64,000 nt of DNA from Glandiceps talaboti (taxonomy: Eukaryota; Hemichordata; Enteropneusta; Spengelidae), in NCBI RefSeq assembly GCF_964340395.1, contig NC_135564.1:1319001-1383000 (forward strand), written 5' to 3'. How positions within the stretch are numbered: position 1 is the stretch's first letter; the number at the start of each line of letters is the position of its first letter. Below, piece by piece: positions 4,064 through 58,734 of this stretch. Both the position numbers and the translations under genes were made by a program. The notes beneath the pieces are model-generated. The model was not told the origin of the DNA. It made no database searches and worked only from the letters and a program-made list of their open reading frames with translations.

Positions 4064-4829
4064 TGTAAACCACTGGATTAGCCAGTTGGGCTTTCTTGTT
4101 AGTCTGTCTGACATGGCTATTATGGCTGTAGTGAACCACTTCATTAGCCAGCCAGGCTTTCTTGTTAGTCTGTCTGGCATGGCTATTGTAGCTGTAGTGA
4201 ACCACTTCATTAGCCAGCCAGGCTTTCTTGTTAGTCTGTCTGACATGGCTATTATGGCTGTAGTGAACCACTTCATTAGCCAGCCAGGCTTTCTTGTTAG
4301 TCTGTCTGGCATGGCTATTGTAGCTGTAGTGAACCACTTCATTAGCCAGCCAGGCTTTCTTGTTAGTCTGTCTGACATGGCTATTATGGCTGTAGTGAAC
4401 CACTTCATTAGCCAGCCAGGCTTTCTTGTTAGTCTGTCTGGCATGGCTATTGTAGCTGTAGTGAACCACTTCATTAGCCAGCCAGGCTTTCTTGTTAGTC
4501 TGTCTGGCATGGCTATTATAGCTGTAGTGAACCACTTCATTAGCCAGCCAGGCTTTCTTGTTAGTCTGTCTGCCTGGCATGGCTATTTTAGCTGTAGTGA
4601 ACCACTTGATTAACCAGCCAGGCTTTCTTGTTAGTCTGTCTGGCATGGCTATTTTAGCTGTAGTGAACCACTTGATTAGCCAGCCAGGCTTTCTTGTTAG
4701 TCTGTCTGACATGGCTATTGTAGCTGTAGTGAACCACTTGATTAGCCAGCCAAGCTTTCTTGTTAGTCTGTCTGGCATGGCTATTGTACCTGCAGTGAAC
4801 CACTTTATTAACCAGTTGGGCTTTCTTGT
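4064..4829. repeat. 66-bp minisatellite, about 11.6 copies, dimeric order
   Basis: The unit is 66 bp and includes CCAGGCTTTCTTGTTAGTCTG. In the left half two unit types alternate (GACATGGCTATTATGGCT and GGCATGGCTATTGTAGCT), giving a 132-bp higher-order repeat; the right part is less ordered. Because 66 is a multiple of three, long frames stay open on both strands with 22-residue periodicity. I treat these as artefacts: there is no start context, domain or splice structure. Confidence 0.93.
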
Positions 4830-6180
4830 ACACATTTGCATTGTTCAAAAAAAATTCAAAAAAAATTCAAAAAAAATGTTAAAATTAATTCTTTATCATG
4901 AAATATCATGTCCCACACTTGGTCCTGAATATTTTCAACATACAATGACACTTTCTATTTCATTGTACATGCTATCATGACCTATGAATACATTTCTATA
5001 ATATCTTACTTGATTCCTGTCCACATTTTGCAAACTTTAATATTAGAGTCAGACAAATAGAACTTTATATTGACCAATAAGCCTAGAGCACCTAGTAAAT
5101 GTATGCAACAAGCATACATCAAAAGGTATTTCCTAAATGTATATTTCATCGTAGTACTCTTACTTCTCTTTACTTGTTATGATTATGCTCTTTCCAATTT
5201 TGCGTTTCTTTAGAGTAGTTGTTTAATTTCAAGGTGACAAATAAGCCCAATGGACTGGGTGATGTATTAACTTTTTGTTCTTTTTATTGGGCAATAAACT
5301 GTACATTCACATGTCACAATAATAAAACATTCTCACTACAAACATCACTATGTTTGCCTGCTTGGGTGATAAGAATAATGTAATTTACCAGCCATATCAA
5401 AGGTATTTATTATGGCAAGGTTTGAAGAAATATTGCCGACGATATCTGCTGAATGTGAGGTTCTAAGAAAAATTGCCACTAGAGGGCGCTGTCACCATGT
5501 CCTTCTTTCATCATGTACCATATATTATCTATTTGATGGCAATGCCACTTTTAATATGATAACAAAAAACATGCAATTTCATGTTTTCTATTCATGAATT
5601 TAAAAGGTGGCGATGTCAATTATTTGTTAACCACAATTATAGTATAGTAATCTTTGCTGAAGACTAAAAATTTATTAATAATTCTGATTCCTATAATCAA
5701 ATAGATGTTTCATGAAAAAGGCCCTGGAGCATGTCTATGGTTGAATATTGCATGTATTTCAATAAATCATTTGTACATGGACTGACAATGACAATGCCCT
5801 GGAAAACAGGCAACATAAAAACTTGGATGCTTGGAGATAAATCATACATTCCCTTATGTGCATTGTGTATGAAATAGGGCACACATTCTCCAGTCACCTT
5901 CAGGTGACCTTACCCATCATATGACCTATCACTGGGCAAGTCATTTACCTTTGAATATCGGTCATGCATTTCTATTCTACGTGTCATCCTTAGTTGCTGA
6001 CATACTTTAATACTTGGTTCATTATATTGACTAAGCCAACATACAATGGAGTTCACAATAAACAAGACACACCTGTTGAGCTTTAAAAAGCTCTGACTTG
6101 CAGAATCCTAGAGGGTCGTAGTACTCGTACAGAAGATTAGCTTTGGCAGCTGGGCTTCCCTCTTTATATACAGTTTAATA
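4830..6180. other. Intergenic; one CTCF-like 15-mer, otherwise plain
   Basis: No gene is visible. Positions 5476-5490 (CCACTAGAGGGCGCT) fit the vertebrate CTCF core consensus. The rest is AT-rich unique DNA. Confidence 0.45.
5476..5490 (+). promoter_or_regulatory. CTCF-motif-like sequence
   Basis: CCACTAGAGGGCGCT agrees with the CTCF core consensus known from vertebrates. Such motifs also ride in transposons, and binding in this organism is unproven. Confidence 0.3.
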
Positions 6181-10597: not shown

Positions 10598-11071
10598 ATG
10601 GCTGCCACTAACGTATCTGTTAACCCAGGTATCTTTAAAGTAGATGCCTTGACGGGTTTTAGAAGACTCTTTTACATGATAACTCCAAATGAGTCGTCTT
10701 TTGCTACAATGGAAGAAGTACCTGAGTATATGGTTGAAGTAAGTGACAGTAAACTAACATTATGATCTGTGAACCTACCTATCTATGTCATTTAAACTGT
10801 AGTTATTGCTCCATAATTGTATTTGTCAAGGTTTGAGAACCCCAGTGGCATTGGAAGGAAATATGCCTGTTTGATGTGTCACTTTGTTACAACTATGCAA
10901 TCTAATACATGACCACATTCTCTCAGAGAAAGATAACCACCAAACTTTTACTACTAAACCTGGCAGAGAGACTATAGAGCCAGCAGTGTTTTCATGTCTC
11001 GCTCAATGTTTAGCACAACTGAACTGATGTTCTGTAGTGCTATAGGGATCGCCCAGCATCTGTCTGTGTGG

Positions 11072-11122
<51 letters not shown>

Positions 11123-12157
11123 CAACTTAAAGTCAAAAACCGTTGAAGCGATTGCCATGATATTCGGTGGGCCCGTGACCTTGGGTGTCTAGTTGGGAAA
11201 TTGTTCAAATCAAAATGATCTTACCACCCTTTTGTGATTTGGGTCAAAAAATGTGATTTTTGGTCAAAAAATTATATGGGGCATATTGGACTGAAATTTG
11301 GGTGAAACATTCTTCAGGGTGTTTTTACTAAGAATTGTTCATGATATAATGGTCCCATCAGTGATATGCAAATTTAAAGGGTTAAAAATGTGTCTTTTTG
11401 GTCAAAAATCTATAATTCCATGATTCCATGAGTGCAAATTAGGTGTAAAAATGTTCATTTTTGGTCAAAAACTTATATCTCAAAAAGTGCTTGGTCAATG
11501 AGTCTGAAACTTGATGAGCTGTTTCTAGAAGTGTTATTCTGCAGATTTTCTTCAAAACATCTTGACAAACTTGGCCCTAGCAACCATGACCACGCCCTTA
11601 GCAACAACCAAATGGCAGTATATTTTGGTCAAATAACATCATCTGATAGGCAAGTGGGTAAACATTCAAAAAATGTATGCAAATACCCTAGCAACCATGA
11701 CTGCCCATAGCAACAGCCAAATGGTGTATTTCACAAAGAGAACAGGGATTCTTATAGACAATCGAATAAACATTCAAAAAATGTATGTAAATTAGCCTAG
11801 CAACAAGACCATACCCATAGCAACAGCCAAATAATCGCGTATATCGCAAAGATAGCAACATAGTTGGATAGGCAACTGGATAGTCATTCAGCAAATGAAC
11901 ACCTATTGTTAGCATGGACTAGCATATGGATAAACGTTTTAAAAAACTACAGTTGTGCTACAATGCCATTGGCGGTATTTTTAGTAACAAATTACATGAA
12001 ACAAAATACAGAGCCTGATAGCATGCAAACATATGAAATGATACATTTTATCTCACTGTGAACACAAATCAACATCACTGTTGGATAAAACAAGAAAGAT
12101 TCTGTTTCAAACACAAACTGTTTATTTTTGTTTACAGTGAGATAAAATGTAACATTT

Positions 12158-12195
<38 letters not shown>

Positions 12196-15100
12196 TGTGT
12201 GTGTGTCTGTCTGTGTTTGTGTGTGTGTTTGTGTGTGTGTGTGTGTATGTGTGTGTGTTTGTGTGTGTGTCTGTGTGTGTCGGTGTGTGTGTGTGTGTGT
12301 GTGTTTGCTAGCTATCAATGCCTGTATTTTGTTTGTGTAATGTTTACTAAAAAAGTTGTGTAACATGTAAAAAACATTGTACCATAGTACATAGAGTATA
12401 CAAGATAGTATGCAATTAACCATTGTAAGCCCAAATGACAATCAAACATTGTTGTCATACACACATTTCAAACCAGTGTTCATCATATTTCAACAATATC
12501 ATACTTTACATTGTTACAAAATGATAAAAATTGCAAGTAATTATTAGACTGTTTGCAGTCACTAATATGTGTGGGTTTTTTTTGTCCAAAATTAGTAATA
12601 ATTTTATATTGCCATGGAAGTTTGCGTGCCAAATGTGCAATTTGAGAGATGGTGTGCCACTAAAAACAGCACAATCAATTGTCAACAGTCTAGGAATTAC
12701 CCCTCTGTAGTATATGTATTTTTGTCTGCTTTTGTCATTTTATCAAACTAATTATTGTTGACAATTCAAATCAAAGTTACCAACATATACAAATGCTTTA
12801 TCTACATCCAAATATGTTTACCAAACGTACAAAAATAATGGTTCAACCAAAGTTAGGTCCATAGTACAGTATATTTATAGTGCTCTCGTTAAATTGGTAT
12901 GTGATGTACCTTTGTATAAAGTCCACAGACCTAGTCTATGGGTCAACACAACAAACACATAATGTAGGGCAAGGTCCTGTAGAATTAATACTTGTCATAG
13001 TCAAGTTAGACTGTAATGACATCATCAGTCGGGCTTATCAGTCTGTCCTAATATTTGGGGAAAGGGAGATTAGACCACATGCTTAGATGCAACCATAATG
13101 GCTAATCTGTCAGTCAATTTTAAGGCCTTTGCCTGATATGCACAGTGCCCTCTATAGATCATGTGAGTAATGAAATATATGTCTTATATTTTGGAGAAAA
13201 AAAACTGTGTCCTGTAAAAAAAACCACTAAATACTAACTACTAATAACAATATCACAATGTTTCATCATTCTCTTTCAGTCAGGTCCATTCTTCTTGGTT
13301 GCCATAGTGCTGGAGATGATTATTGGACATCTCCAAGGCAACCACAAGATGTATAGAGTAAATGATAGTCTCAGTTCTATTGGTGCTGGAATGTTTATGA
13401 CTCTGTTAGCTGGTGTATCCAAGTATGACTCATTATCATATATTTATGTCAGTCTGACAATAGACTTCAATCACTTGTATAAAATATACCAATTTTGGAC
13501 ATCATACATCCAAGTTTATTGCCGATGTATGAAGATAAATACAAATTGTATCTTTTAGATCCAATGTTAAAATCATCTTTACCTGTTTATAGATTCATGA
13601 TTGTTGACATTGGTTTATTCTTTTAGAACATTGTACTTTATGACATCTCTACAAAATAATTGGACTATACATGTAGTCAAGAGACAATGTGCCAAATGTA
13701 CCAAGTTTATTGCAAATTTGGAACCAGTTTCCCTGAAAATCAAGGTTTTTGGTTCCTCTTTAGACTTTGCCATATAGAAGTTTGTTCCTGATCCTTTTAA
13801 AATAAGAAAAGAGATTTGGGGTTCACACATCTTATTGGAATTTGAAATCATCATGCTTTTATTTTGCAAGATGATATTTGGTGTTTCACTCCAAGGAAAT
13901 ATATGAAATTATATTCCAAGTATACAATGATGTGTGTATGTGTGTGTGGTGTGAGCATTATCAAAATTATACTATGCATAAGCCAAGTTGAACAAAAAAA
14001 TATGGAATTTATACCCTGGTTGTACATCACAACAACATGTGTCTATGTCATGACGACGTGCATCTACGTCACTGGATCTGCTGTGTTTGAAATACGAGTC
14101 AAAACATTTAAAATTATCATTACTTTCCTCTGTTTTTCTTTGTTATTACTGGTACTGGTATAATTATGTTATACTCCAATATTTTTCATCTTTCAGCCAG
14201 AAAATACTCGTGACCTAAGGGTTGTCACTACGAGTCGTGACTTTTAGTGACAATTAAAGCTCCTTAGACCAGTAGCATTTTCCTTGGCTCCCTTAGGTCA
14301 CTCATATTTTCCTTGGCTAAACAAAGACAAATATGAGAATAACATGTAAATATTCTCATATTTTACCTGTGGTATTTCTTAGTGAATAAGCTCTTGATAT
14401 AATTTCTGATAATCTAAAAGTTTTTGTACTTATGATCTCCATTGCCATGTTTTTTCCATTCCAGGGTATTTTTTCACACAGCTGAATTCTTAGTTTATAT
14501 CTGGGTACATGAAAATCACCGTTTAGCAGATTTAGCCTGGGATTCTCCTTGGACATGGCTGCTGTGTTTTCTTGGAGTTGATATCGGGTACTATTGGTTT
14601 CACAGGTATGCACATGGTAAGTTGGGGGTATACAGATCTCAGTAGCAATGTTTTCACATGGTATGTTGGACAAAAATAGACCAAATTGGAATACATGGAT
14701 ATCCCATAGTCAAGAATCCCTAACATTTCTCCCTTTATCAGTATATAAATACTGCATAACTTTCTAAGTTTATTGTTTAGCTGTGTTGGTGGATACTAAA
14801 AGCCTTTTATACAATTTTGTCTTTAAACTTTTTTGTTCTGATTTCCAGAAATCAACTTTATGTGGGCAGCACATCAAGTTCATCACAGCTCTGAAGAGTA
14901 TAATTTAAGTACAGCATTACGACAATCTATTGTGCAGAGGTACACATCATGGGTAAGTTACCCCTACCGTCTTTCCAAATAGACTCAACTACTATAATAC
15001 CAAACATAGGGACATACCAAATGGTCAGTAGTAATGGGAATAATTGCCTTGGTACAATTTATGCAGTACTTTGTCTGACTATTGTGTTTCTGTTTTCATC

Positions 15101-18100
15101 TCAGGTATTCTATGTACCACTAGCCTTCTTTATACCACCGTCCGTTGCCCTGGTACATATCCAGTTCAATACACTATATCAGTTCTGGATACATACAGAA
15201 GTAAGTACTACATATCAAATGTAATATGTCGATAAGATCATGGAATTGAAGATTATTCAGTTTGCCACTTTTCTGCCAAAAAAAAGGATAAGATAATGGA
15301 GAATATAGAGTACTGCTATTTAAAAGGAATGCCGCTCAAGGAAATAGACATTTTCATGGTTTACATCACCTACATAATACTTGTGATTTCATAGAAACAT
15401 CAAGTTGATCTTATACATTTAGAGGGTAGTGTTCCATTCCTGATTATGGCATTCCATTCCTGATTATGGAATTCCATTCCTGATGAACTCAAAGACCTTT
15501 CAGAACTTGAACTTTTTAAACGAAAACTTAAAACACACCTCTTTAAAATGTATCATGAATTGTGATTTGTTTATTTGACTCAGAGTACAAAATTTATATT
15601 ATCTTAGTGGTCATTTACGTTCGTTTTAATATTTGACATTTTTAAGGCTTTTATAACAAGTCTCAGTCTATAATTTTAATGACCATTCACTATCCTTTTA
15701 ACATTTGACATTTTAAGGGTGTTAACGGTATACTTGTTTTTGTAGCATTCACCTTATTTATGTTTTTGTATTTTATGTGCAGCGCTTTTGAATATTTTAA
15801 ATAGAAAAGGCGCTTTAGAAAATAAATAAACTTAAACTTAAACTTAAACTTAAACTTAGTGTTGCTATGGGCTATTGCATCATGGGAGATAGAAGAAATT
15901 ATATGTTCATGGTTGCTTAATGAATATTCCTTCAGTGTAAAACATCCCTCATGAATATTCATTTCTGCTTATACCCATCATGCATTAGCCCACACCAAAG
16001 AGAGGCTGTAAAGGCACAAAATCAACTAGATGTTATTCTGAAATCACTAGTAATTGTAGGTGATGTAAAATCATGAAATGACTCTCCAGTTTATGAAAAG
16101 TCCTTTATTTCCTGGAGTGGTGTTCCTCTTTAATGTTTTTGTGTATCTCCTCAATACAGTGAAAATAAAATCCAGATGGGAGGGATAAGTTTACTTTTCA
16201 TTGAAAATAAAATCCTCAGAAAATAAAATATTCTAGTTGTAAGCTTACACATTATAGAGTTAGAGTTCATGAACCTTACATGTACCGGGGTAGTACTGAT
16301 ATGGCTATTAATACCGTTTTATAACATTTGCTTGTATGTGTTCTAAAAATGTTAAATATATTATGTTTGTATGTTTATTGGCCTTTCTTGAACAAATTAC
16401 ACACAGAAAAATTGATAACACAACAAGAAAATATGACAGTAATAATATTATAATAACTACAGCCTGAATTATTTTCATTAATTGTAAAAAGTAAAGAGAT
16501 GAGAAAATTCATGATAATTTTTTAAAAATCAACAAGTTGCTCTTATTTCCTCAAAGTAAAGACATTGGCAACCATCTTCATCTACATTTTGGATATTAAA
16601 TTTTATGAATTTAGTTCTCTATTCCAAACATTTTAGTACCTTGTTTGTTTGCTCGTGATTTGTTTTCCTGTGATTAAAAATTTCAGTGGATGTGAAGTTT
16701 ACTCACATTTTTTGAAATTTCTATGAACGACAGATTTTTGTCTTTGTATCATTGAAGAAAGAAAATATATTTCTCACGTTGAAATTTTTGCTGAATATAA
16801 TTTCAGTTGATAAAGACTATTGGACCATTGGAGTACATATTAAACACACCCAGTCATCACAGAGTTCATCATGGTAAGTACTTAGTACATAGAGTACATA
16901 TTAAACACACCCAGCCATCACAGAGTTCATCATGGTAAGTACTTAGTACATAGAGTACATATTAAACACACCCAGTCATCACAGAGTTCATCATGGTAAG
17001 TACTTAGTACATAGAGTACATATTAAACACACCCTGTCACCACAGAGTTCATCATGGTAAGTACTTAGTACATAGAGAACATATTAAACACACCCAGTCA
17101 TCACAGAGTTCATCATGGTAAGTACTTAGTACGTAGAGTACATATTAAACACACCCAGTCATCACAGAGTTCATCATGGTAAGTACTTAGTACATAGAGT
17201 ACATATTAAACACACCCAGTCATCACAGAGTTCATCATGGTAAGTACTTAGTACATAGAGTACATATTAAACACACCCAGCCATCACAGAGTTCATCATG
17301 GTAAGTACTTAGTACATAGAGTACATATTAAACACACCCAGTCATCACAGAGTTCATCATGGTAAGTACTTAGTACATAGAGTACATATTAAACACACCC
17401 TGTCACCACAGAGTTCATCATGGTAAGTACTTAGTACATAGAGAACATATTAAACACACCCAGTCATCACAGAGTTCATCATGGTAAGTACTTAGTACAT
17501 AGAGTACATATTAAACACACCCAGTCATCACAGAGTTCATCATGGTAAGTACTTAGTACATAGAGTACATATTAAACACACCCAGACATCACAGAGTTCA
17601 TCATGGTAAGTACTTAGTACGTAGAGTACATATTAAACACACCCTGTCACCACAGAGTTCATCATGGTAAGTACTTAGTACATAGAGAACATATTAAACA
17701 CACCCAGTCATCACAGAGTTCATCATGGTAAGTACTTAGTACATAGAGTACATATTAAACACACCCAGTCATCACAGAGTTCACCATGGTAAGTACTTAG
17801 TACATAGAGTACATATTAAACACACCCAGTCATCACAGAGTTCACCATGGTAAGTACTTAGTACATAGAGTACATATTAAACACACCCAGACATCACAGA
17901 GTTCATCATGGTAAGTACTTAGTACATAGAGTACATATTAAACACACCCAGACATCACAGAGTTCATCATGGTAAGTACTTAGTACATAGAGTACATATT
18001 AAACACACCCAGTCATCACAGAGTTCATCATGGTAAGTACTTAGTACATAGAGTACATATTAAACACACCCAGTCATCACAGAGTTCATCATGGTAAGTA

Positions 18101-21100
18101 CTTAGTACATAGAGTACATATTAAACACACCCTGTCACCACAGAGTTCATCATGGTAAGTACTTAGTACATAGAGTACATATTAAACACACCCAGTCATC
18201 ACAGAGTTCATCATGGTAAGTACTTAGTACATAGAGTACATATTAAACACACCCAGTCATCACAGAGTTCATCATGGTAAGTACTTAGTACATAGAGTAC
18301 ATATTAAACACACCCTGTCACCACAGAGTTCATCATGGTAAGTACTTAGTACATAGAGTACATATTAAACACACCCAGTCATCACAGAGTTCATCATGGT
18401 AAGTACTTAGTACATAGAGTACATATTAAACACACCCAGACATCACAGAGTTCATCATGGTAAGTACTTAGTACATAGAGTACATATTAAACACACCCAG
18501 ACATCACAGAGTTCATCATGGTAAGTACTTAGTACATAGAGTACATATTAAACACACCCAGTCATCACAGAGTTCATCATGGTAAGTACTTAGTACATAG
18601 AGTACATATTAAACACACCCAGACATCACAGAGTTCATCATGGTAAGTACTTAGTACATAGAGTACATATTAAACACACCCAGACATCACAGAGTTCATC
18701 ATGGTAAGTACTTAGTACATAGAGTACATATTAAACACACCCAGTCATCACAGAGTTCATCATGGTAAGTACTTAGTACATAGAGTACATATTAAACACA
18801 CCCAGACATCACAGAGTTCATCATGGTAAGTACTTAGTACATAGAGTACATATTAAACACACCCAGACATCACAGAGTTCATCATGGTAAGTACTTAGTA
18901 CATAGAGTACATATTAAACACACCCAGTCATCACAGAGTTCATCATGGTAAGTACTTAGTACGTAGAGTACATATTAAACACACCCAGACATCACAGAGT
19001 TCATCATGGTAAGTACTTAGTACATAGAGTACATATTAAACACACCCAGTCATCACAGAGTTCATCATGGTAAGTACTTAGTACATAGAGTACATATTAA
19101 ACACACCCAGACATCACAGAGTTCATCATGGTAAGTACTTAGTACATACAGTACATATTAAACACACCCAGACATCACAGAGTTCATCATGGTAAGTACT
19201 TAGTACATAGAGTACAAATTAAACACACCCAATCATCACAGAGTTCATCATGGTAAGTACTTAGTACATAGAGAACATATTAAACACACCCAGTCATCAC
19301 AGAGTTCATCGTGGTAAGTACTTAGTACATAGAGTACATATTAAACACACCCAGACATCACAGAGTTCACCATGGTAAGTACTTAGTACATAGGGTACAA
19401 ATTAAACACACCCAGTCATCACAGAGTTCATCATGGTAAGTACTTAGTACATAGAGTACATATTAAACACACCCAGTCATCACAGAGTTCATCATGGTAA
19501 GTACTTAGTACATAGAGTACATATTAAACACACCCAGTCATCACAGAGTTCATCATGGTAAGTACTTAGTACATAGAGAACATATTAAACACACCCAGTC
19601 ATCACAGAGTTCATCGTGGTAAGTACTTAGTACATGGAGTACATATTAAACACACCCAGCCATCACAGAGTTCATCATGGTAAGTACTTAGTACATAGAG
19701 AACATATTAAACACACCCAGACATCACAGAGTTCATCATGGTAAGTACTTAGTACATAGAGTACATATTAAACACACCCAGTCATCACAGAGTTCATCAT
19801 GGTAAGTACTTAGTACATAGAGTACATATTAAACACATCCAGACATCACAGAGTTCATCATGGTAAGTACTTAGTACATAGAGTACATATTAAACACACC
19901 CAGTCATCACAGAGTTCATCATGGTAAGTACTTAGTACATACAGTACATATTAAACACACCCAGCCATCACAGAGTTCATCATGGTAAGTACTTAGTACA
20001 TAGAGTACATATTAAACACACCCAGTCATCACAGAGTTCATCATGGTAAGTACTTAGTACATAGAGAACATATTAAACACACCCAGACATCACAGAGTTC
20101 ATCATGGTAAGTACTTAGTACATAGAGAACATATTAAACACACCCAGACATCACAGAGTTCATCATGGTAAGTACTTAGTACATAGAGAACATATTAAAC
20201 ACACCCAGACATCACAGAGTTCATCATGGTAAGTACTTAGTACATAGAGTACATATTAAACACACCCAGTCATCACAGAGTTCATCATGGTAAGTACTTA
20301 GTACATAGAGAACATATTAAACACACCCAGACATCACAGAGTTCATCATGGTAAGTACTTAGTACATAGAGTACATATTAAACACATCCAGACATCACAG
20401 AGTTCATCATGGTAAGTACTTAGTACATAGAGTACATATTAAACACACCCAGTCATCACAGAGTTCATCATGGTAAGTACTTAGTACATACAGTACATAT
20501 TAAACACACCCAGCCATCACAGAGTTCATCGTGGTAAGTACTTAGTACGTAGAGTACATATTAAACACACCCAGTCATCACAGAGTTCATCATGGTAAGT
20601 ACTTAGTACAGAGTACATATTAAACACACCCAGTCATCACAGAGTTCATCATGGTAAGTACTTAGTACATAGAGTACATATTAAACACACCCAGCCATCA
20701 CAGAGTTCATCATGGTAAGTACTTAGTACATAGAGTACATATTAAACACACCCAGTCATCACAGAGTTCATCATGGTAAGTACTTAGTACATAGAGTACA
20801 TATTAAACACACCCAGCCATCACAGAGTTCATCATGGTAAGTACTTAGTACATAGAGTACATATTAAACACACCCAGTCATCACAGAGTTCATCATGGTA
20901 AGTACTTAGTACATAGAGTACATATTAAACACACCCAGTCATCACAGAGTTCATCATGGTAAGTACTTAGTACATACAGTACATATTAAACACACCCAGT
21001 CATCACAGAGTTCATCATGGTAAGTACTTAGTACATAGAGTACATATTAAACACACCCAGTCATCACAGAGTTCATCATGGTAAGTACTTAGTACATAGA

Positions 21101-24100
21101 GTACATATTAAACACACCCAGTCATCACAGAGTTCATCATGGTAAGTACTTAGTACATAGAGTACATATTAAACACACCCAGTCATCACAGAGTTCATCA
21201 TGGTAAGTACTTAGTACATAGAGTACATATTAAACACACCCAGTCATCACAGAGTTCATCATGGTAAGTACTTAGTACGTAGAGTACATATTAAACACAC
21301 CCAGTCATCACAGAGTTCATCATGGTAAGTACTTAGTACATAGAGTACATATTAAACACACCCAGTCATCACAGAGTTCATCATGGTAAGTACTTAGTAC
21401 GTAGAGTACATATTAAACACACCCAGTCATCACAGAGTTCATCATGGTAAGTACTTAGTACGTAGAGTACATATTAAACACACCCAGTCATCACAGAGTT
21501 CATCATGGTAAGTACTTAGTACGTAGAGTACATATTAAACACACCCAGTCATCACAGAGTTCATCATGGTAAGTACTTAGTACGTAGAGTACATATTAAA
21601 CACACCCAGTCATCACAGAGTTCATCATGGTAAGTACTTAGTACATAGAGTACATATTAAACACACCCAGTCATCACAGAGTTCATCATGGTAAGTACTT
21701 AGTACATAGAGTACATATTAAACACACCCAGTCATCACAGAGTTCATCATGGTAAGTACTTAGTACGTAGAGTACATATTAAACACACCCAGACATCACA
21801 GAGTTCATCATGGTAAGTACTTAGTACATAGAGTACATATTAAACACACCCAGTCATCACAGAGTTCATCATGGTAAGTACTTAGTACATAGAGTACATA
21901 TTAAACACACCCAGTCATCACAGAGTTCATCATGGTAAGTACTTAGTACGTAGAGTACATATTAAACACACCCTGTCATCACAGAGTTCATCATGGTAAG
22001 TACTTAGTACATAGAGTACATATTAAACACACCCAGCCATCACAGAGTTCATCAAGTACATATTAAACACACCCAGTCATCACAGAGTTCATCATGGTAA
22101 GTACTTAGTACATAGAGTACATATTAAACACACCCTGTCACCACAGAGTTCATCATGGTAAGTACTTAGTACATAGAGTACATATTAAACACACCCTGTC
22201 ACCACAGAGTTCATCATGGTAAGTACTTAGTACGTAGAGTACATATTAAACACACCCTGTCACCACAGAGTTCATCATGGTAAGTACTTAGTACATAGAG
22301 TACATATTAAACACACCCTGTCACCACAGAGTTCATCATGGTAAGTACTTAGTACATAGAGTACATATTAAACACACCCAGTCATCACAGAGTTCATCAT
22401 GGTAAGTACTTAGTACATAGGTACAAATTACTTGGATTACATTTATGTATCAGTGCTTTGATAGTTAGATAAGTAATTCAATCTGTAGAATTGGTAATAT
22501 TTTTCTCTGAGCTGTAGCTGATTGCAGCTTACTAAATACCATACTTCCCACAATTCACCATTCAAGATGGCGTCTTTGGTCATTCCCTAGTGTATGTATT
22601 TGGGACATATGAAATTTATCATTTTTCCATTTTAGGTCGTAACAGATATTGTATTGACAAGAACTATGCAGGGACCTTGATTATTTGGGATAGAATGTTT
22701 GGTAAGTGTTTTTTGAATTTAAGGTATACAAAGAGTGGGGTCGAAAATCAAAGAGTGAAAAGTCTACACAAGTCAAAAAGGGGGTCAATTTAAACCTAAT
22801 ACTGTATATGTATATACCCTGTTACTGACTGTGGGTAACCCCAACCCCCACCCCACCCTCCGAGGTTTGACAAACATATAAATAGGTTCGAGGCAAGTTT
22901 CAAGTATTTTGAATGTAGCTTTAGGCAAAATGTTTATACTTACTGTTACGAAGTAGCCCAATTACCATATGACTCAACAAGTGCACAAATAAACACTAAC
23001 AAGACATTCTCTTATCCAATCTGCTTTTCTTTTTCGAATATTAAAAAAATAATTTAATTTTACAGGTACATTTGAACCTGAAAGTGAACGTGTAGTGTAT
23101 GGTGTAACACATCCTATAAACACTTGGGATCCAATTTACACTCAGGTAAAATTATCATATCTTCAAAAATGTTGATTTCCCCCTCACCAATCTCTCTGTA
23201 TGCCCCTTTTGATACAGCTAGTTTCAAGTTACAGTTCACTGGCTCTGTTTGATACAACCATGCCGAAACCAATAAGAAACTGAACATTCTACACTGAGCT
23301 AGCAAGATCACAATTTCTTGCTACAACTAGACACTGACACACACATTTTGATGTCTGCAGACATTTATTCATTTTATTTTAAGACAATATGAAACAAAAA
23401 AACTATATTCGTTTAATCTTGCTATCTTAAAGCATAGCATGTGCAGTTTCTTATTGGTTTTTGCATGGTTGTATCGAAGAGATCAAAGCAGTGGAATCAA
23501 TCAATCAATCAGTTTATTTCAGAACAATAAGGCAACAGGCCCAAAGAGCAAATAGAATCAGTGAACACTCGCTTAAAACGGGCTATAACAGTGTTTTTGT
23601 TCCAGGAAAAGTCAAGTCACATCTTGCCTAATACAAAATGTGTCAAGATAGGTATTATTAACAATGTCATATTAAACCTGAGAGTTCCCAAAAAACTGAA
23701 CACATGTCAAGTGCAGTACATGTATCACTTCTTTACACAATAAGATTAGAGTGTTCAATGATGAGGTCATTACCAGAGGTTTCCCATAAATCCTTGCAGG
23801 AAATCCTCAAAATGACTAAACACATGTCAAGTGCAGTATCACTTCTTTACACAATGAGATTAGAGTGTTCAATGATATGATGAGGTCATTACCAGAGGTT
23901 TTCCCATAAACCCTTGCAGGAAATCCTCAAAATGACTGAACACATGTCAAGAGCAGTAGAGCTTCTTTACAAGATTTTAATAACATTACCAAAGTGCATT
24001 TTGATCACTCAAAGTCATACGAATATTAGTAGTTATTTGATACAAGTGTTAAAAAAAGCAGCATAATTTAGAACACTGAGTGGCACATTGATGTATTTCT

Positions 24101-24795
24101 ATGTTGATTTCAGATGTGTCACTTTATTCATATTTGGAAGACATTCTGGAGTACACCTGGAATAGGTAATAAGCTATCTGTACTGTTTAAAGGACCAGGC
24201 TGGGAACCAGGAAAGCCAAGACTGGGTTGCATTGAAGATATTCCTATGGTAGAGTATATACTTGTAGCATCATTTATAAACAAAATGACACTTTCTCTAT
24301 CATTTATACCACATGTAAACTGAAAACCTTCCATAAGGCAATGCTTTGACGGAATGCAACATTTTGAGCTATAGCTAGCAATATATATTGTACCTTAATG
24401 GGCAAAACAGTTATACCAAGCTATATGAAATTTGAAGCTTGCAAACTTCCGATATTGCCTAATTACCGAAAATCATCATTTATGCAAATGATCATTAAGA
24501 GAATAAGCTCCACCAATAACAGGACACATACATAATGTAACTTAACAAAACTTATTACAGTTACAATGCTGATAGAAACTCTGCAGTCGACAATATGTTT
24601 AAGAGAAATTGCCTTGCAAGTCTCATATGTCACTTCTACATATATAAGTTTGGATCTATGCCAGCTCAGTACTGATAATGGAAGTTATTGAGAACAATGC
24701 ATTTTATCTTCTTAGTGGCAAAGTGTTTATCAAACAATATGAACAGTCATGATTTCATGGGTTATCTTTTCCCTTTGGATCAGATTTTTAATCAG

Positions 24796-24833
<38 letters not shown>

Positions 24834-27800
24834 TATCAGCGATCTGTTTTTCAGGTGAAATATCCAGAGAAGAAATACAATAGTAGATACTCAGCATGGG
24901 CAGACGCCTATGTGGTGTTGCATTTCTTATTGATTTACTTTGCATTTGACGATATCGCTAAGCAAATCAACGTAAGTAATTAAAATATACTGGACTCTGG
25001 TTTTAAACAAATATGATTACATTAATTACTGTTAAAACAGGACAATACACTCAGATACAGACAGACAGACAGACAGACGTATGCTGATAGTGTATGGAAA
25101 GTAGCATAAAGCTGTGTAATGTAAAATTCAATATTTACTCGGGTACACTAAATTGAAAATAAGGAGAGTTCCACCCAAAAGTGAAAAACTAATAGTTCCA
25201 ACTCAAATTACCATGGTAACCATTTGACAGTTTGGATTCCACACCAGTTACAATACCACTCCCTTTACACTATTTTAAACAATTTCATTTAGAGATGTTG
25301 TCATCAATGATGTCATTATTTTTGTGGTCTCTTTCAGGTGATGTCATAGTTTGTTACATTGTGTGGTATGACACACATTTTAATGATGTCATTATTTTTG
25401 TGGTCTCTTTCAGGTGATGTCACAGGTTGTTGTATTGTGTGGTATGGCATACATTGTATTGACACTGACAACTATTGGAACGATCTGTGACAAAAAGTAA
25501 GTCTAAGTATAATCTAGGAAATGTTTTGTGACATCAATATTTTATTTTCTTGTCCATTTGATACCCTGTACTGATGAACAAGATTTACATACCTCTTAAT
25601 TGTAGCTCCACCCACAGCTTACAAATGTATATAGCGATAAGTCTATGCCCATAGCAACAAGACTGTGCCCTTAGCAACAATCAAATTGTTTACATCATTC
25701 TAACAGTTGGGTATTTGCTCATTTACATGAACAACATTTGGTATATGTTTTCTCATAAATGAGCTAGACGGTGGTAAATAGATGATAACACCCTCAGATG
25801 GCATCTAGACCATCATTAATGATAAAGACAGTTTACACACTTCCTGATGATAACACCCTCAGATGGCATCTAGACCATCATTAATGATGAAGACAGTTTA
25901 TACATTTCCTGATGATAACACCCTCAGATGGCATCTAGACCATCATTAATGATGAAGACAGTTTATACATTTCCTGATGATAACACCCTCAGATGGCATC
26001 TAGACCATCATTAATGATGAAGACAGTTTATACACTTCCTGATGATAACACCCTCAGATGGCATCTAGACCATCATTAATGATAAAGACAGTTTATACAC
26101 TTCCTGATGATAACACCCTCAGATGGCATCTAGACCATCATTAATGATAAAGACAGTTTATACACTTCCTGATGATAACACCCTCAGATGGCATCTAGAC
26201 CATCATTAATGATGAAGACAGTTTATACACTTCCTGATGATAACACCCTCAGATGGCATCTAGACCATCATTAATGATAAAGACAGTTTATACACCTCCT
26301 GATGATAACACCCTCAGATGGCATCTAGACCATCATTAATGATGAAGACAGTTTATACACTTCCTGATGATAACACCCTCAGATGGCATCTAGACCATCA
26401 TTAATGATAAAGACAGTTTATACACCTCCTGATGATAACACCCTCAGATGGCATCTAGACCATCATTAATGATAAAGACAGTTTATACATTTCCTGATGA
26501 TAACACCCTCAGATGGCATCTAGACCATCATTAATGATAAAGACAGTTTATACACCTCCTGATGATAACACCCTCAGATGGCATCTAGACCATCATTAAT
26601 GATAAAGACAGTTTATACATTTCCTGATGATAACACCCTCAGATGGCATCTAGACCATCATTAATGATAAAGACAGTTTATACACTTCCTGATGATAACA
26701 CCCTCAGATGGCATTTAGACCATCATTAATGATGAAGACAGTTTATACACTTCCTGATGATAACACCCTCAGATGGCATCTAGACCATCATTAATGATAA
26801 AGACAGTTTATACACTTCCTGATGATAACACCCTCAGATGGCATCTAGACCATCATTAATGATAAAGACAGTTTATACACTTCCTGATGATAACACCCTC
26901 AGATGGCATCTAGACCATCATTAATGATGAAGACAGTTTATACACCTCCTGATGATAACACCCTCAGATGGCATCTAGACCATCATTAATGATAAAGACA
27001 GTTTATACATTTCCTGATGATAACACCCTCAGATGGCATCTAGACCATCATTAATGATAAAGACAGTTTATACACCTCCTGATGATAACACCCTCAGATG
27101 GCATCTAGACCATCATTAATGATAAAGACAGTTTATACACTTCCTGATGATAACACCCTCAGATGGCATCTAGACCATCATTAATGATGAAGACAGTTTA
27201 TACACTTCCTGATGATAACACCCTCAGATGGCATCTAGACCATTATTAATGATAAAGACAGTTTATACACCTCCTGATGATAACACCCTCAGATGGCATC
27301 TAGACCATTATTAATGATAAAGACAGTTTATACACTTCCTGATGATAACACCCTCAGATGGCATCTAGACCATTATTAATGATAAAGACAGTTTATACAC
27401 TTCCTGATGATAACACCCTCAGATGGCATCTAGACCATCATTAATGATAAAGACAGTTTATACACCTCCTGATGATAACACCCTCAGATGGCATCTAGAC
27501 CATCATTAATGATGAAGACAGTTTATACATTTCCTGATGATAACACCCTCAGATGGCATCTAGACCATCATTAATGATGAAGACAGTTTATACATTTCCT
27601 GATGATAACACCCTCAGATGGCATCTAGACCATCATTAATGATAAAGACAGTTTATACATTTCCTGATGATAACAGGTTTAGGTAGAGTGACCTTTGGGG
27701 ACAAATTTTCCTGAAAATCAAACTCCTTCAAGTTTCACCAATCTTTGACGTATGGAAGCTTCCTTCTGATTCTTTTGAAATAGTTAAGAAATTTTGGGTT

Positions 27801-28507
27801 CACCATCTTTTTTTTCAAGAAAATTTACAATCTTTTATATGCCTACATGAATATTCGGCAGCCATATTGGAATCTAAAATTGGTAAATTTTGATATTTGA
27901 CCTCTATTTCAAAAATTTGTGTGGTGACCCCTGATCTTTATTCTTGATTTTAACTGAGAATGGGCTGGAGTTTTCTTGAGTAACAGGAAATGTTTTAAGA
28001 GTTTATTTTTGACTTGTATTTCACATTAAAACTTCTATACAATACAATGTAGCCAAAATAATCACTTGATGCAAACTAATGACGATAGACTGACACTACA
28101 TGGACTATGTCAGTAACAAATTATACCTAAAGTTCGATGTTCATTATCTCTCATTTCAGGTCATACGCCCCATTGTTTGAGTTCAGTTGTTGTGCACAGT
28201 ATCTAATATTAGACATTCTCTAATTTCAGGTCATATGCTCCATTGTTTGAGTTCAGTCGTTGTGCCCTGTATCTAATATTAGACATTCTCTTATTTCAGG
28301 TCATATGCTCCATTGTTTGAGTTCAGTCGTTGTGCACTGTATCTAATATTAGATGCTACATTGTCTGCAACGTATGTACCAATCCTTGGCATTGGTCAGG
28401 TATCAACCAAAGCACAGGTATTCCGTGGACTATTCACATTATCGGCAACAATCTGGTTGGTAGAGGGCATCAGAAACATGAATGGGAAGAAGACAAAGGC
28501 CGAGTAG
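10598..28507 (+). CDS. AGMO: Alkylglycerol monooxygenase (AGMO/TMEM195-like), 12 coding exons
   Basis: AGMO is a tetrahydrobiopterin-dependent, di-iron, multi-pass ER membrane enzyme that cleaves the ether bond of alkylglycerols. Exons: 10598-10738, 13280-about 13414, 14465-14616, 14849-14952, 15105-15200, 16807-16873, 22636-22701, 23066-23145, 24114-24248, 24855-24971, 25414-25496, 28300-28507, about 460 aa (human 445). The fatty-acid-hydroxylase histidine boxes are present: HRYAH (about residues 138-142, exon 3), HQVHH (about 151-155, exon 4) and HRVHH (about 227-231, end of exon 6). A THPIN motif lies in exon 8. The start was chosen because MAATNVS leads directly into the family N-terminus ([24 protein letters not shown]). 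All junctions join in phase except exon 2 to exon 3. Introns carry large arrays, one derived from exon 6 itself. Identity is secure; details of the exon 2 boundary are not. Confidence 0.95.
11050..11410. repeat. (GT)n plus dispersed repeat in AGMO intron 1
   Basis: A GT microsatellite at about 11073-11118 is followed by a low-complexity segment with repeated TTTTGGTCAAAAA. This layout (GT run, then a 'cause-neutral' AT-rich tail) recurs elsewhere in the window, for example near 37150-37360 and 58870-59060, so it is probably a dispersed repeat family. Confidence 0.5.
11560..11860. repeat. CCTAGCAAC / CCCATAGCAAC tandem-like repeat, intron 1
   Basis: Three degenerate units of about 110 bp (starting near 11576, 11689 and 11797) share CTAGCAACCATGAC, GCCCATAGCAACAGCCAAAT and ATTCAAAAAATGTATG. 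The same family occurs at about 31670-31865 and as a fragment at about 25645-25690. Confidence 0.7.
12160..12305. repeat. Interrupted (GT)n microsatellite, about 145 bp
   Basis: GT repeats are broken by TTTGT, CTGT and ATGT variants. Runs of Cys/Val or Thr/His frames across it are artefacts. Confidence 0.95.
12306..13279. other. Remainder of AGMO intron 1
   Basis: Unique AT-rich intron sequence up to the exon 2 acceptor (CTCTTTCAG at 13271-13279). No other feature is seen. Confidence 0.5.
13690..13870. repeat. Dispersed repeat (CCTGAAAATCAA family), partial copy
   Basis: This resembles 27676-28015 (shared pieces include CCTGAAAATCAA, TTTGGGTTCA-like and TTTTGAAAT-like blocks) and more weakly 61135-61445. 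It is non-coding and its class is unknown. Confidence 0.45.
13964..14346 (+). repeat. Hairpin-ended dispersed repeat, copy 2 (AGMO intron 2)
   Basis: Same family and orientation as the copy at 111-449. The head contains AATATGGAATTTATACC and the palindromic tail lies at about 14170-14346. An extra duplicated piece (CATTTTCCTTGGCT, then CATATTTTCCTTGGCT) distorts the palindrome. It sits about 120 bp before AGMO exon 3. Confidence 0.75.
15470..15858 (+). pseudogene. 5'-truncated LINE 3' end (AGMO intron 5)
   Basis: 15472-15565 translates as [20 protein letters not shown] and HLFKMYHEL then stop, the typical C-terminus of CR1/L2-like LINE reverse transcriptases. A 3'UTR of about 270 bp follows, with GCGCTTTAGAAAATAAATAA and a terminal (AAACTT)n tail to 15858. 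The element is truncated just upstream and sits in the sense orientation in the intron. Shortly before it a 25-bp segment with CATTCCTGATTATGG is repeated. Confidence 0.8.
15859..16806. other. Remainder of AGMO intron 5
   Basis: AT-rich unique sequence up to the exon 6 acceptor (ATAATTTCAG ending at 16806). Nothing else is recognised. Confidence 0.5.
16831..22420 (+). repeat. 61-bp satellite derived from AGMO exon 6 and its splice donor, about 92 copies
   Basis: The unit begins GAGTACATATTAAACACACC and ends GTAAGTACTTAGTACATA; period 61 bp, about 5.59 kb. The first unit is the real exon: 16831-16873 are its last 43 coding bases ([14 protein letters not shown] plus one base) and 16874 onward is its donor. 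Every later unit repeats those coding bases and the ATG|GTAAGT donor. Units vary mainly at one codon (AGT, AGC or AGA before CATCAC, or TGTCACCAC). One unit is shortened near 22050, and another lost two bases near 20609. An in-frame TAG in each intronic part means that use of any later donor would truncate the protein. Confidence 0.97.
22421..22635. other. End of AGMO intron 6
   Basis: Unique sequence between the satellite and exon 7. It includes CACCATTCAAGATGGCGTC at about 22556, weakly like the right end of the candidate MITE near 3805. The exon 7 acceptor is TTTTAG ending at 22635. Confidence 0.5.
22702..23065. other. AGMO intron 7
   Basis: 364 bp of intron with a C-rich patch near 22840. 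No feature is supported. Confidence 0.5.
23495..23975 (-). repeat. Retroposon-like tail and 120-bp tandem repeat (AGMO intron 8)
   Basis: CAATCAATCAATCAGTTTATTTC near 23497 looks like the reversed 3' tail of a retroposon ending in (GATT)n. A tandem repeat follows from about 23693, with a unit near 120-125 bp (marker: AACACATGTCAAGTGCAGTA), two copies and a partial third. Confidence 0.6.
24797..24832. repeat. (GATT)n microsatellite near the exon 10 acceptor
   Basis: About nine GATT units end roughly 20 bp before the exon 10 acceptor (24854). They lie within the branch-point and polypyrimidine region. Confidence 0.9.
25306..25457 (+). repeat. 76-bp duplication of the exon 11 acceptor and 5' exon part
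   Basis: Two adjacent copies start at 25306 and 25382, each with AATGATGTCATTATTTTTG, the acceptor CTCTTTCAG and the exon start GTGATGTCA. The second copy is the real exon (from 25414). In the first copy, translation from its acceptor (25338) reads V-M-S-stop. The decoy acceptor lies 76 bp upstream of the real one and would be non-productive. Confidence 0.92.
25781..27675. repeat. 65-bp minisatellite in AGMO intron 11, about 29 copies
   Basis: The unit contains GATGATAACACCCTCAGATG, CTAGACCATCATTAATGAT and AGACAGTTTATACA. Units differ mainly at GATAAAG/GATGAAG and CACTTCC/CATTTCC/CACCTCC. The period is strictly 65 bp and there is no coding content. Confidence 0.97.
27676..28015. repeat. Dispersed repeat (CGGCAGCCATATTGGAATCT family)
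   Basis: It shares blocks with 61135-61445: GCAGCCATATTGGA, ATTTTGATAT, TTGACCTCTATTT-like, AACTGAGAAT, TTCTTGA and AGTAACAG. Non-coding; class unknown. Confidence 0.6.
28143..28352 (+). repeat. 70-bp triplication of the exon 12 acceptor and exon start
   Basis: Three copies, with exon-like starts at 28160, 28230 and 28300, carry ATTTCAG followed by GTCATATGCTCCATTGTTTG. Only the third continues into the terminal exon to the stop at 28507. From the first acceptor the frame hits a stop (ATTCTCTAA) within the unit. The period of 70 is not a multiple of three, so extra copies cannot be tolerated in frame. Confidence 0.93.
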
Positions 28508-55384: not shown

Positions 55385-58300
55385 TACATACAAATTCATA
55401 CTTGTAAAAGCGTGTGCACGCAAATTTGCACGCTCAAACAAACAAAAAAGGTTTGAAAATTGTATTACACTGTTTAATAGTATCTCAGAGAATCAACGCA
55501 GTTGCCTGAGCTAGTATGTGTGTATTGATAAATAGTTTATTTATATTTGTAGATTTGAAACCTATTGGAAAGGACTGTGCAGATATCCTGAAAACTACAT
55601 CCCAAACAAGTGGTGTTTACGCCATTCAACCAGAAGGCAGTGATGAAGCTTTCAATGTATATTGTGACATGGACACAGGGTCTGGAGGATGGACTGTGAG
55701 TATCACGTCCTGCATATGAAAATGTACTAAAACAATTTGAAAGAAACAAAAATCGAAATCAAAGCGGAAACATTGTTACAAACCAGAGCTGTTATTTCTT
55801 CCGCGACACTGCGAAATACAAAGTGCGTCTTGGATGATGCCGTAAAAGAGGGTGTTGTTTACGACGATGAGCGAAAAGAAATAACGACTAGACTATTAAA
55901 GTATCAGGATTTTATATATTATGATAATTTCCACTTGATTATCTTAGCATTAATGAGGGTTTGACGCCCCCCTTCCCCCGCCCCCTCCTTTGGACACATG
56001 TATATTTTGATTGTATAGTGATTTTCGGGTCACTGGAGTCCTGATTAATAACGTTGGTGGCGCTGTTAAAACTGCATACTCGTAGTCACTCGAATCATAA
56101 CCCTATCATTTGTTGGCCAAAATGTACCGATTTGATTCCCGGTTTTTGAATCGTGATAGTGTTTGTGCTTTTGTTTTGAATCCCTCAGAGCACTACTCTG
56201 AATCCCATTTTCCTATCATGTACCCCCCCCCCCCCGATCATGGGTACTCCTGTACAATATTCTTCTACCAAACCCCCCCCCCCCCCAATCAAGAGTACTT
56301 TGAACAACATTTCTACCTAGGGAGCCGTCATTATTTACGACCGGGGGGTTGGGGGTTGGAGGAATTGCTTCGAAAATCCACAAAATTTGAGTGACCCCCC
56401 TGGCTTGAAATTTTTCGTAACCCCCCCCCCGACACATTTTTTTTCATACACCCCCCCCCACACCATTTTATCGTCATCATAACTCATTAACTACCTACCT
56501 ACATACATATACATACATACATACATACATTTTTGAATTTTAAGGACTAAAAGAATGCTTTCTGGTGCTCTTTTAACATGTAAAATTTTGAGCAGCCCCT
56601 CCCCTTTCACTCCCCAATCTTTGGGTAACCCCCCTTTCACTCCCCAGGTTTTGAGTTACCCCACCCTAAATCCCCCCCCCCACTGCGCCAGTCATAAATA
56701 ATGATGCCCCCCCCCCCTAGTACTCCCCATATCCCTCTCCCTCAATCCAAGGCACCCCTGTACAATTATTCTACCAAGTTCCCCTCCCTGATCACTCCTA
56801 GATCCTGTACCCATTCTCCTACCAAGCACCCCTCCCCTGATCCAGGGTACTCCTTGGGCTGAACAATTAAAAATGCAATATTCACTCATATTGGTACAGG
56901 TCTTCCAACGACGACAGGATGGCAGTGAGGAATTCTATAGAAATTGGGTCCAATATGAGCATGGTTTTGGTGACGTTACCGGGGAATTCTGGTTGGGTAA
57001 TAAAAAGATCCATCAACTAACCAATCAACCAGGTAGAACTTATCAGTTGAGAGTTGATCTGGAAGACTGGGAAGGCAATATGAAGTACGCCATTTATCAC
57101 AATTTCAAAGTTGGTGACAGTCGGAGCAAATACAAGCTCTCCATAGGAACCTATGCTGGAACTGCAGGTATGATAATAATGATGACTATGTTGTGGGCAC
57201 TGTCGTGGGGTGGGAAGAGGAGGGGGGACAGTTCAGGGAGAGACTAGTTTCACGAGTTCAGACAACCCATCTGTGCAGTTTCCATAGAGCCATAGACATT
57301 GCCCTTTGCAAAGACTAGAATTAACAAAATATGAAACTTATTGCTGCCTTTACTACACTTGTATTGACAACTGCTATCAATTTAAAGGAAAAGTGCAGTC
57401 AGACTTACTTCTGTCTTTAGTACACTTGTATTGATTACTGCTATCAACTTAAAGGAAAAAGTCCAGTCAGACTTACTTCTGTCTTTAGTACACTTGTATT
57501 GATTACTGCTATCAACTTAAAGGAAAAAGTCCAGTCAGACTTACTTCTGTCTTTAGTACACTTGTATTGATTACTGCTATCAACTTAAAGGAAAAAGTCC
57601 AGTCAGACTTATTTCTGTCTTTAGTACACTTGTATTGATTACTGCTATCAACTTAAAGGAAAAAGTCCAGTCAGACTTATTTCTGTCTTTAGTACACTTG
57701 TATTGATTACTGCTATCAACTTAAAGGAACAGTCCAGTCGGACTTATTTCTGTCTTTAGTACACTTGTATTGATTACTGCTATCAACTTAAAGGAACAGT
57801 CCAGTCGGACTTATTTCTGTCTTTAGTACACTTGTATTGATTACTGCTATCAACTTAAAGGAAAAGTCCAGTCAGACTTATTTCTGTCTTTAGTACACTT
57901 GTATTGATTACTGCTATCAACTTAAAGGAACAGTCCAGTCGGACTTATTTCTGTCTTTAGTACACTTGTATTGATTACTGCTATCAACTTAAAGGAAAAG
58001 TCCAGTCAGACTTATTTCTGTCTTTAGTACACTTGTATTGATTACTGCTATCAACTTAAAGGAAAAGTCCAGTCAGACTTATTTCTGTCTTTAGTACACT
58101 TGTATTGATTACTGCTATCAACTTAAAGGAACAGTCCAGTCGGACTTATTTCTGTCTTTAGTACACTTGTATTGATTACTGCTATCAACTTAAAGGAAAA
58201 GTCCAGTCAGACTTATTTCTGTCTTTAGTACACTTGTATTGATTACTGCTATCAACTTAAAGGAAAAGTCCAGTCAGACTTATTTCTGTCTTTAGTACAC

Positions 58301-58734
58301 TTGTATTGGTCAAACAGCATCTCTTTATCTTATTCAGCTTTGAAATCTTGTAAAGGAGCCCTATATGTACTTTATGACATGCAGATCTATGAATGTACAC
58401 AAGGTTTATATCTCTTTCCTGACCTTTTGTTATGTTAGCCAACCATTAATGGGTTGTATTACATTATTTTGTAACAGGTGACTCCCTATCTTATCACAAA
58501 AACATGGGCTTTACTACAATGGATGCTGACAATGATAGCTGGAGTAACAACTGTGCTGTGGCACGTCATGGTGGATGGTGGTACAAGGCATGTATTAATT
58601 CAAATCTGAACTCTAGCTATCGTCAGGGCAAAGTACCAGACAATGACGGCTGTGTTATGTGGGACAAGTTTACTAAAAACGGCCATTACTATTCCCTCAA
58701 AACAAGCGAGATGAAAGTTAAGCCTCTGGACTAA
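54451..58734 (+). CDS. Secreted fibrinogen-related (FReD) protein
   Basis: Coding exons 54451-54625, 55553-55695, 56900-57167 and 58478-58734, all in phase, give 280 aa. A signal peptide ([19 protein letters not shown]) is followed by a short amphipathic stretch ([19 protein letters not shown]) ending in Cys-Cys-x-Cys, suited to coiled-coil pairing and disulfide linkage. A complete fibrinogen C-terminal domain follows from about residue 60: [36 protein letters not shown] and the calcium-site-like [11 protein letters not shown], with the late disulfide pair C...GGWWYKAC. Such proteins act as extracellular lectins in innate immunity or adhesion. The ligand here is unknown, and ficolin, techylectin or FREP orthology cannot be decided. 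The stop overlaps an AATAAA. Confidence 0.93.
54626..55552. other. FReD intron with (AC)n microsatellite
   Basis: (AC)n lies at about 55334-55382. The rest is plain intron sequence; nothing else is supported. Confidence 0.6.
55965..56870. repeat. C-run-rich dispersed repeat cluster in FReD intron
   Basis: Many runs of 8-14 C are interleaved with repeats of TACTCCTGTACAAT-type and CAATC(AA/CA)GG-type blocks. GGGAGCCGTCATTATTTACG (56321-56340) resembles GGGAGTCATCATTATTTACG at about 42246 in the HNMT-like units, so a dispersed family spans both places. A TACATA run lies at 56490-56530. Proline/glycine reading frames are artefacts. Confidence 0.6.
57345..58308. repeat. 67/68-bp minisatellite in the last FReD intron, about 14 copies
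   Basis: The unit contains TACACTTGTATTGATTACTG, CTATCAACTTAAAGGAA and AGTCCAGTCAGACTTATTTC. Length varies with the A-run, and GTCGGAC replaces GTCAGAC in a subset. Confidence 0.96.

Follow-up and report, generated by a model that had tools for sequence, protein, structure and literature searches.

The alkylglycerol monooxygenase gene (AGMO) of the hemichordate Glandiceps talaboti carries a tandem array in which the end of coding exon 6, complete with its splice donor, is repeated some ninety times downstream of a single acceptor. Only the first of these donors yields AGMO in the gene model. We consider it likely that the array is a minisatellite of the type known in amphioxus as a mirage, with donor 1 normally used and the extra copies without a selected role. 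The window analysed here is a stretch of 64,000 nucleotides (assembly GCF_964340395.1, contig NC_135564.1), and positions refer to it unless stated otherwise. The features needed to follow the gene and its array are these:

10598..28507, + strand: AGMO gene model, 12 coding exons, 463 amino acids, no internal stop
16807..16873, + strand: AGMO exon 6, 67 nt, encoding 22 residues and the first base of a Gly codon; its last 43 nt are repeat unit 1
16874..16879, + strand: donor 1, ATG/GTAAGT, the sole one of 91 giving the full protein in the model
22636..22701, + strand: AGMO exon 7, 66 nt, the acceptor side of intron 6
16831..22430, + strand: 61-bp minisatellite with 92 exon-6 tails, 91 intact donors and 24 types among the 91 donor-bearing units
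22015..22054, + strand: donor-less unit, cut to 40 bp
22420..22430, + strand: array edge GGTACAAATTA, matching the unit start AGTACATATTA in 9 of 11 letters and one period downstream of the last unit

Judged by its predicted protein, the host gene is AGMO. The modelled protein matches PF04116 (FA_hydroxylase, E 1.7e-30) and PF24858 (AGMP_C, E 1.8e-17), and its best relative, among 120 listed of 8000 scored, is the NCBI G. talaboti AGMO-like protein, at 98% identity across the whole query. The histidines of the motifs are invariant in all eight AGMO proteins aligned, as is the HRVHH box encoded by exon 6. The NCBI protein has 457 residues against 463 in our model and differs from it at the exon 1/2 and 2/3 joins, both of which are uncertain in the model. 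Its exon 6/7 join, HHG-RNRYC, corresponds to donor 1 spliced to 22636, in a prediction that was possibly guided by homology. A genome search with PF04116 returned 15 matches from 18 candidates, none of them on the window's contig; having thus missed the window's own exon-split domain, it is uninformative on exon-split paralogues.

Tandem Repeats Finder reported the 61-bp array as two adjoining segments, 16831-22054 and 22055-22430, with 97% matches and a top score of 9888. In each unit, the final 43 nt of AGMO exon 6 are followed by the first 18 nt of intron 6, and the array therefore spans the exon-intron boundary. Direct counting across 16807-22440 gave 92 exon tails and 91 exact GTAAGTACTTAGTAC donors, with ATG/GTAAGT intact in 91 units. 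Of the 90 steps between successive donors, 88 measure 61 bp, one measures 59 bp, reflecting one unit of that length, and one measures 101 bp, at the donor-less unit. Upstream of the donor position, every one of the 92 exon tails within 16831-22430 contains ATTAAA, a polyadenylation-like hexamer.

An earlier, sequence-only reading of this DNA had identified AGMO as the host, set the exon 6 acceptor at 16806, the exon end at 16873 and the start of exon 7 at 22636, and described a 61-bp unit combining the 43-nt end of exon 6 with ATG/GTAAGT; the domain matches, the gene model and the direct count bear out each of these. It had also proposed an array of about 92 copies at 16831-22420, in which one acceptor is followed by about 92 near-identical donors. 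The number of exon tails and the arrangement hold, while the array extends to 22430 and the intact donors number 91.

Two rival accounts concern the nature of the array. Tandem arrays can be mis-assembled, and the true locus could hold one or a few units. We rate such an artefact as highly improbable on several indirect grounds: the assembly comprises 590 Mb in 47 contigs, with the locus on a contig of 24.1 Mb; the 24 unit types stand in a non-random order; and other arrays of many copies occur in the same assembly. In twenty 10-kb pieces of the same contig, 200 kb in all, Tandem Repeats Finder detected 32 arrays with a period of at least 25, of which two have 58 and 99 copies. Large minisatellites are thus not rare in this sample of the G. 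talaboti genome. The other account, a dispersed satellite inserted beside exon 6, could appeal to the many further tandem arrays within the window. We give it next to no credence, given that the unit is exon 6's own end with its own donor, and that a nucleotide search with a single unit as query against the assembly that holds the window gave at least 92 matches, with all those listed inside the AGMO intron-6 array.

Variation among the units bears on how the array arose and on what it preserves. Two units differ on average at 1.7 of 61 positions, and 33 of the 91 donor-bearing units, unit 1 among them, equal the consensus. Among 30 lags tried, the same unit type tends to return at lag 3 (z 4.6), lag 2 (z 2.9) and lag 8 (z 2.7). 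Such recurrence would fit local block duplication, and the lag-3 signal suggests turnover. We infer that the array started as a segment across the boundary of exon 6 and intron 6 and grew through replication slippage and unequal exchange; growth from such a segment would account for an exon end and a donor in nearly every unit. The edge GGTACAAATTA may have seeded the first slippage, or it may represent a partial unit that has since decayed. In the coding part, 10 nonsynonymous and 3 synonymous variant types were found, a ratio near the 103:23 among all possible changes, and hence the copies do not appear to be maintained for what they encode. No variant falls within GTAAGT; since only 14 of the 61 unit positions vary, this proves no constraint there.

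What each donor would encode was determined by joining all 91 in turn to exon 7 at 22636 and reading the frame. Donor 1 gives the full 463-aa AGMO, with the frame open through the 12 modelled exons. Donor 2 leads to a TAA at codon 257, and donors 3-91 to a TAA at codon 256. That only the first donor gives the protein, as had been claimed, is thus correct, and no AGMO arises from donors 2-91, although the in-frame stop is TAA throughout and not the TAG that had been named. Exon 6 would measure 67 nt with donor 1, 128, 189 and 250 nt with donors 2, 3 and 4, and more than 300 nt with donors 5-91.

These lengths suggest how the locus could remain functional. The minisatellite is probably neutral and would be tolerated through exon definition of donor 1. 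Intron 6 would normally be spliced from that donor, which would benefit from being transcribed before the others and from its distance of 67 nt to the exon 6 acceptor. Donors 5-91, needing exons of more than 300 nt, would be poor partners under exon definition, which could thereby exclude 87 of the 91 donors. Synthesis order and decay of stop-bearing mRNA could deal with donors 2-4, whose products, with their early stops, would be cleared by nonsense-mediated decay. The copies would have no selected role.

RNA structure was considered as a mark of donor 1 and ruled out: predicted accessibility is alike for donors 1-11 (0.21-0.23 for donor 1 against 0.13-0.26 for ten other array donors in the same folds). 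The fold of a two-unit RNA is ordinary (z -0.78). Set beside seven other AGMO donors tried (0.32-0.65), the exon 6 donor has a lower predicted accessibility, 0.22, which would count against the preference for donor 1 as far as the folding model goes. Its pairing with U1 is moderate, at -10.5 kcal/mol versus -14.6 kcal/mol for the full consensus. Of the ten other AGMO donors four were tried, and all four pair more weakly, at -5.6 to -8.4 kcal/mol; they do not include the donors of exons 3, 4 and 7, which have the same G/GTAAGT core. Eperon and colleagues reportedly found, in 1993 and 2000, that where U1 occupancy is high, the winning donor can be the one closest to the downstream acceptor; that rule would favour donor 91 and so speaks against the use of donor 1. 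The amphioxus globin paper likewise raises the possibility that decoy signals act as cryptic splice sites (PMC3087553, available in part), a further point against donor 1.

If some transcripts used donors 2-4 and were then removed by nonsense-mediated decay, array length could tune AGMO dose. Donors 2-4 have the features that such regulated unproductive splicing would call for, namely the GTAAGT core shared with donor 1 and exons of 128-250 nt that all contain an early TAA. We nonetheless find it unlikely, as coding constraint is not apparent in the units and regular splicing is reported for the amphioxus mirage genes (PMC3087553 and PMC3902484, in the parts available).

U1 suppresses intronic polyadenylation (PMC3826338, available in part), and some 90 U1 sites, each with an upstream ATTAAA, might affect elongation through intron 6 or premature polyadenylation within it. 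The composition of the array region, with 92 ATTAAA, 0 AATAAA and 91 GTAAGT, lends itself to this idea, but the ATTAAA is merely repeated exon 6 coding sequence (ATA TTA AAC), and we judge such an action of U1 very unlikely. A joint claim would make the array a rheostat: donors 2-4 would compete with donor 1, ATTAAA/U1 pairs would shape the choice of 3' end, and copy number, variable and differing between animals or tissues, would set AGMO output. This combination seems to us quite improbable. We continue to favour a mirage-type minisatellite spliced from donor 1.

Repeats also overlap exon boundaries elsewhere, both in AGMO and in the genome sample:

25306..25462, + strand: AGMO exon 11 acceptor region, 76 bp x 2.1, with a decoy at 25338 and the real exon start at 25414
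28147..28353, + strand: AGMO exon 12 acceptor region, 70 bp x 3.0, with decoys at 28160 and 28230 and the real exon start at 28300
5071-5442 of sampled piece L018: donor end of a C-type lectin exon, present three times, 141 and 142 bp apart

An AGMO exon begun at the exon 11 decoy acceptor 25338 runs into a stop at codon 371, and exons begun at the exon 12 decoys 28160 and 28230 do so at codons 416 and 425. In the lectin gene, copies 2 and 3 of the donor repeat contain stop codons. The first lectin peptide alone has no Pfam match; a Lectin_C match (E 2.6e-17) emerges once copy 1 is linked to the exon that follows. Repeats thus affect donor boundaries (AGMO exon 6 and the lectin) as well as acceptor boundaries (AGMO exons 11 and 12), and in all four cases the frame-keeping copy is the one that adjoins the rest of the exon. 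Of the 32 sampled arrays, the lectin one alone was examined for exons by homology, and it stands as a single case and not as a rate. A genome search with Lectin_C for tandem exon copies showed, by eye, no two listed matches closer than about 550 bp; with 150 matches listed and 150 of 897 candidates scored, it is too coarse for boundary pieces.

Within the AGMO model, 3 of 22 internal exon boundaries lie within arrays. At the level of loci, three of five arrays meet a boundary (simulated P 0.034), and the other four loci, without the array that drew attention to the gene, give P 0.14; a preference of the arrays for exon boundaries is therefore not established. The window also holds a 65-bp array of 29 copies at 25781-27675, wholly within AGMO intron 11, and a 66-bp array of 11.5 copies at 4068-4829, which, repeating every 22 aa in translation, keeps a long frame open upstream of AGMO exon 1. 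A further array, at 57336-58308, was considered as a boundary repeat and rejected, for it sits within an intron and reaches neither boundary; it has 14.5 copies of 67 bp, and its host gene is fibrinogen-like by eye.

One acceptor followed by 91 near-identical donors amounts to a natural experiment in splice-site choice, in which the predictions are opposed: exon definition together with first-made-first-used points to donor 1, and the nearest-acceptor rule for occupied donors to donor 91. Structures of this sort are already known, so the novelty of the G. talaboti array is modest and its value lies in the sharp test of donor choice that it offers. The founding paper on mirages is said to be that of Canestro in 2002, on Adh3.

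Amphioxus mirage minisatellites have been described in Adh3, the globins BflGb6 and BflGb9, troponin C and PGBD5, the last two in PMC3902484 (PMC3087553 and PMC3902484, both available in part). They are the same sort of structure as the array in AGMO, which does not support a view of it as undescribed in kind; the sequence-only reading had known of no described case of this scale. In both animals, tandem repeats lie across exon-intron boundaries of intact genes, and donor and acceptor sides are both affected. Many amphioxus units retain AG/GT signals, as 91 donors do here, and their unit lengths of 10-160 bp bracket the 61-76 bp of G. talaboti (same sources, in the parts available). Adh3 data and RT-PCR of the globins suggest that mirages leave regular splicing undisturbed (PMC3087553, in part); such RT-PCR backs the globin cases, whereas the G. 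talaboti array is known from the DNA of one assembly.

A model of intron gain through tandem duplication of AGGT-bearing segments (PMC3087553, in part) offers another parallel. In the potato RdRp intron gain (PMC4974935, available in part), tandem duplication of AGGT segments copied splice signals, as here; unlike intron gain, the G. talaboti case shows no new intron, the extra copies sitting in the existing intron 6. Our literature search, thin on subscription journals, found no hemichordate case and no larger array spanning a boundary.

The available parts of PMC3087553 and PMC3902484 name boundary-spanning repeats only from lancelets, whereas the present case, with about 90 copies, comes from a hemichordate. 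Its 91 donors compare with 6 units in one haplotype of BflGb6 and 3 in the other, with a duplicate in BflGb9 and with three units in PGBD5, the genes to which this comparison is limited (same sources, in part); the unmatched scale once claimed for the array accordingly holds against BflGb6 and PGBD5 only. Taken together, the array looks like a very large example of the known mirage kind, and in phylum and copy number it goes beyond the described mirages compared here, those of BflGb6, BflGb9 and PGBD5.
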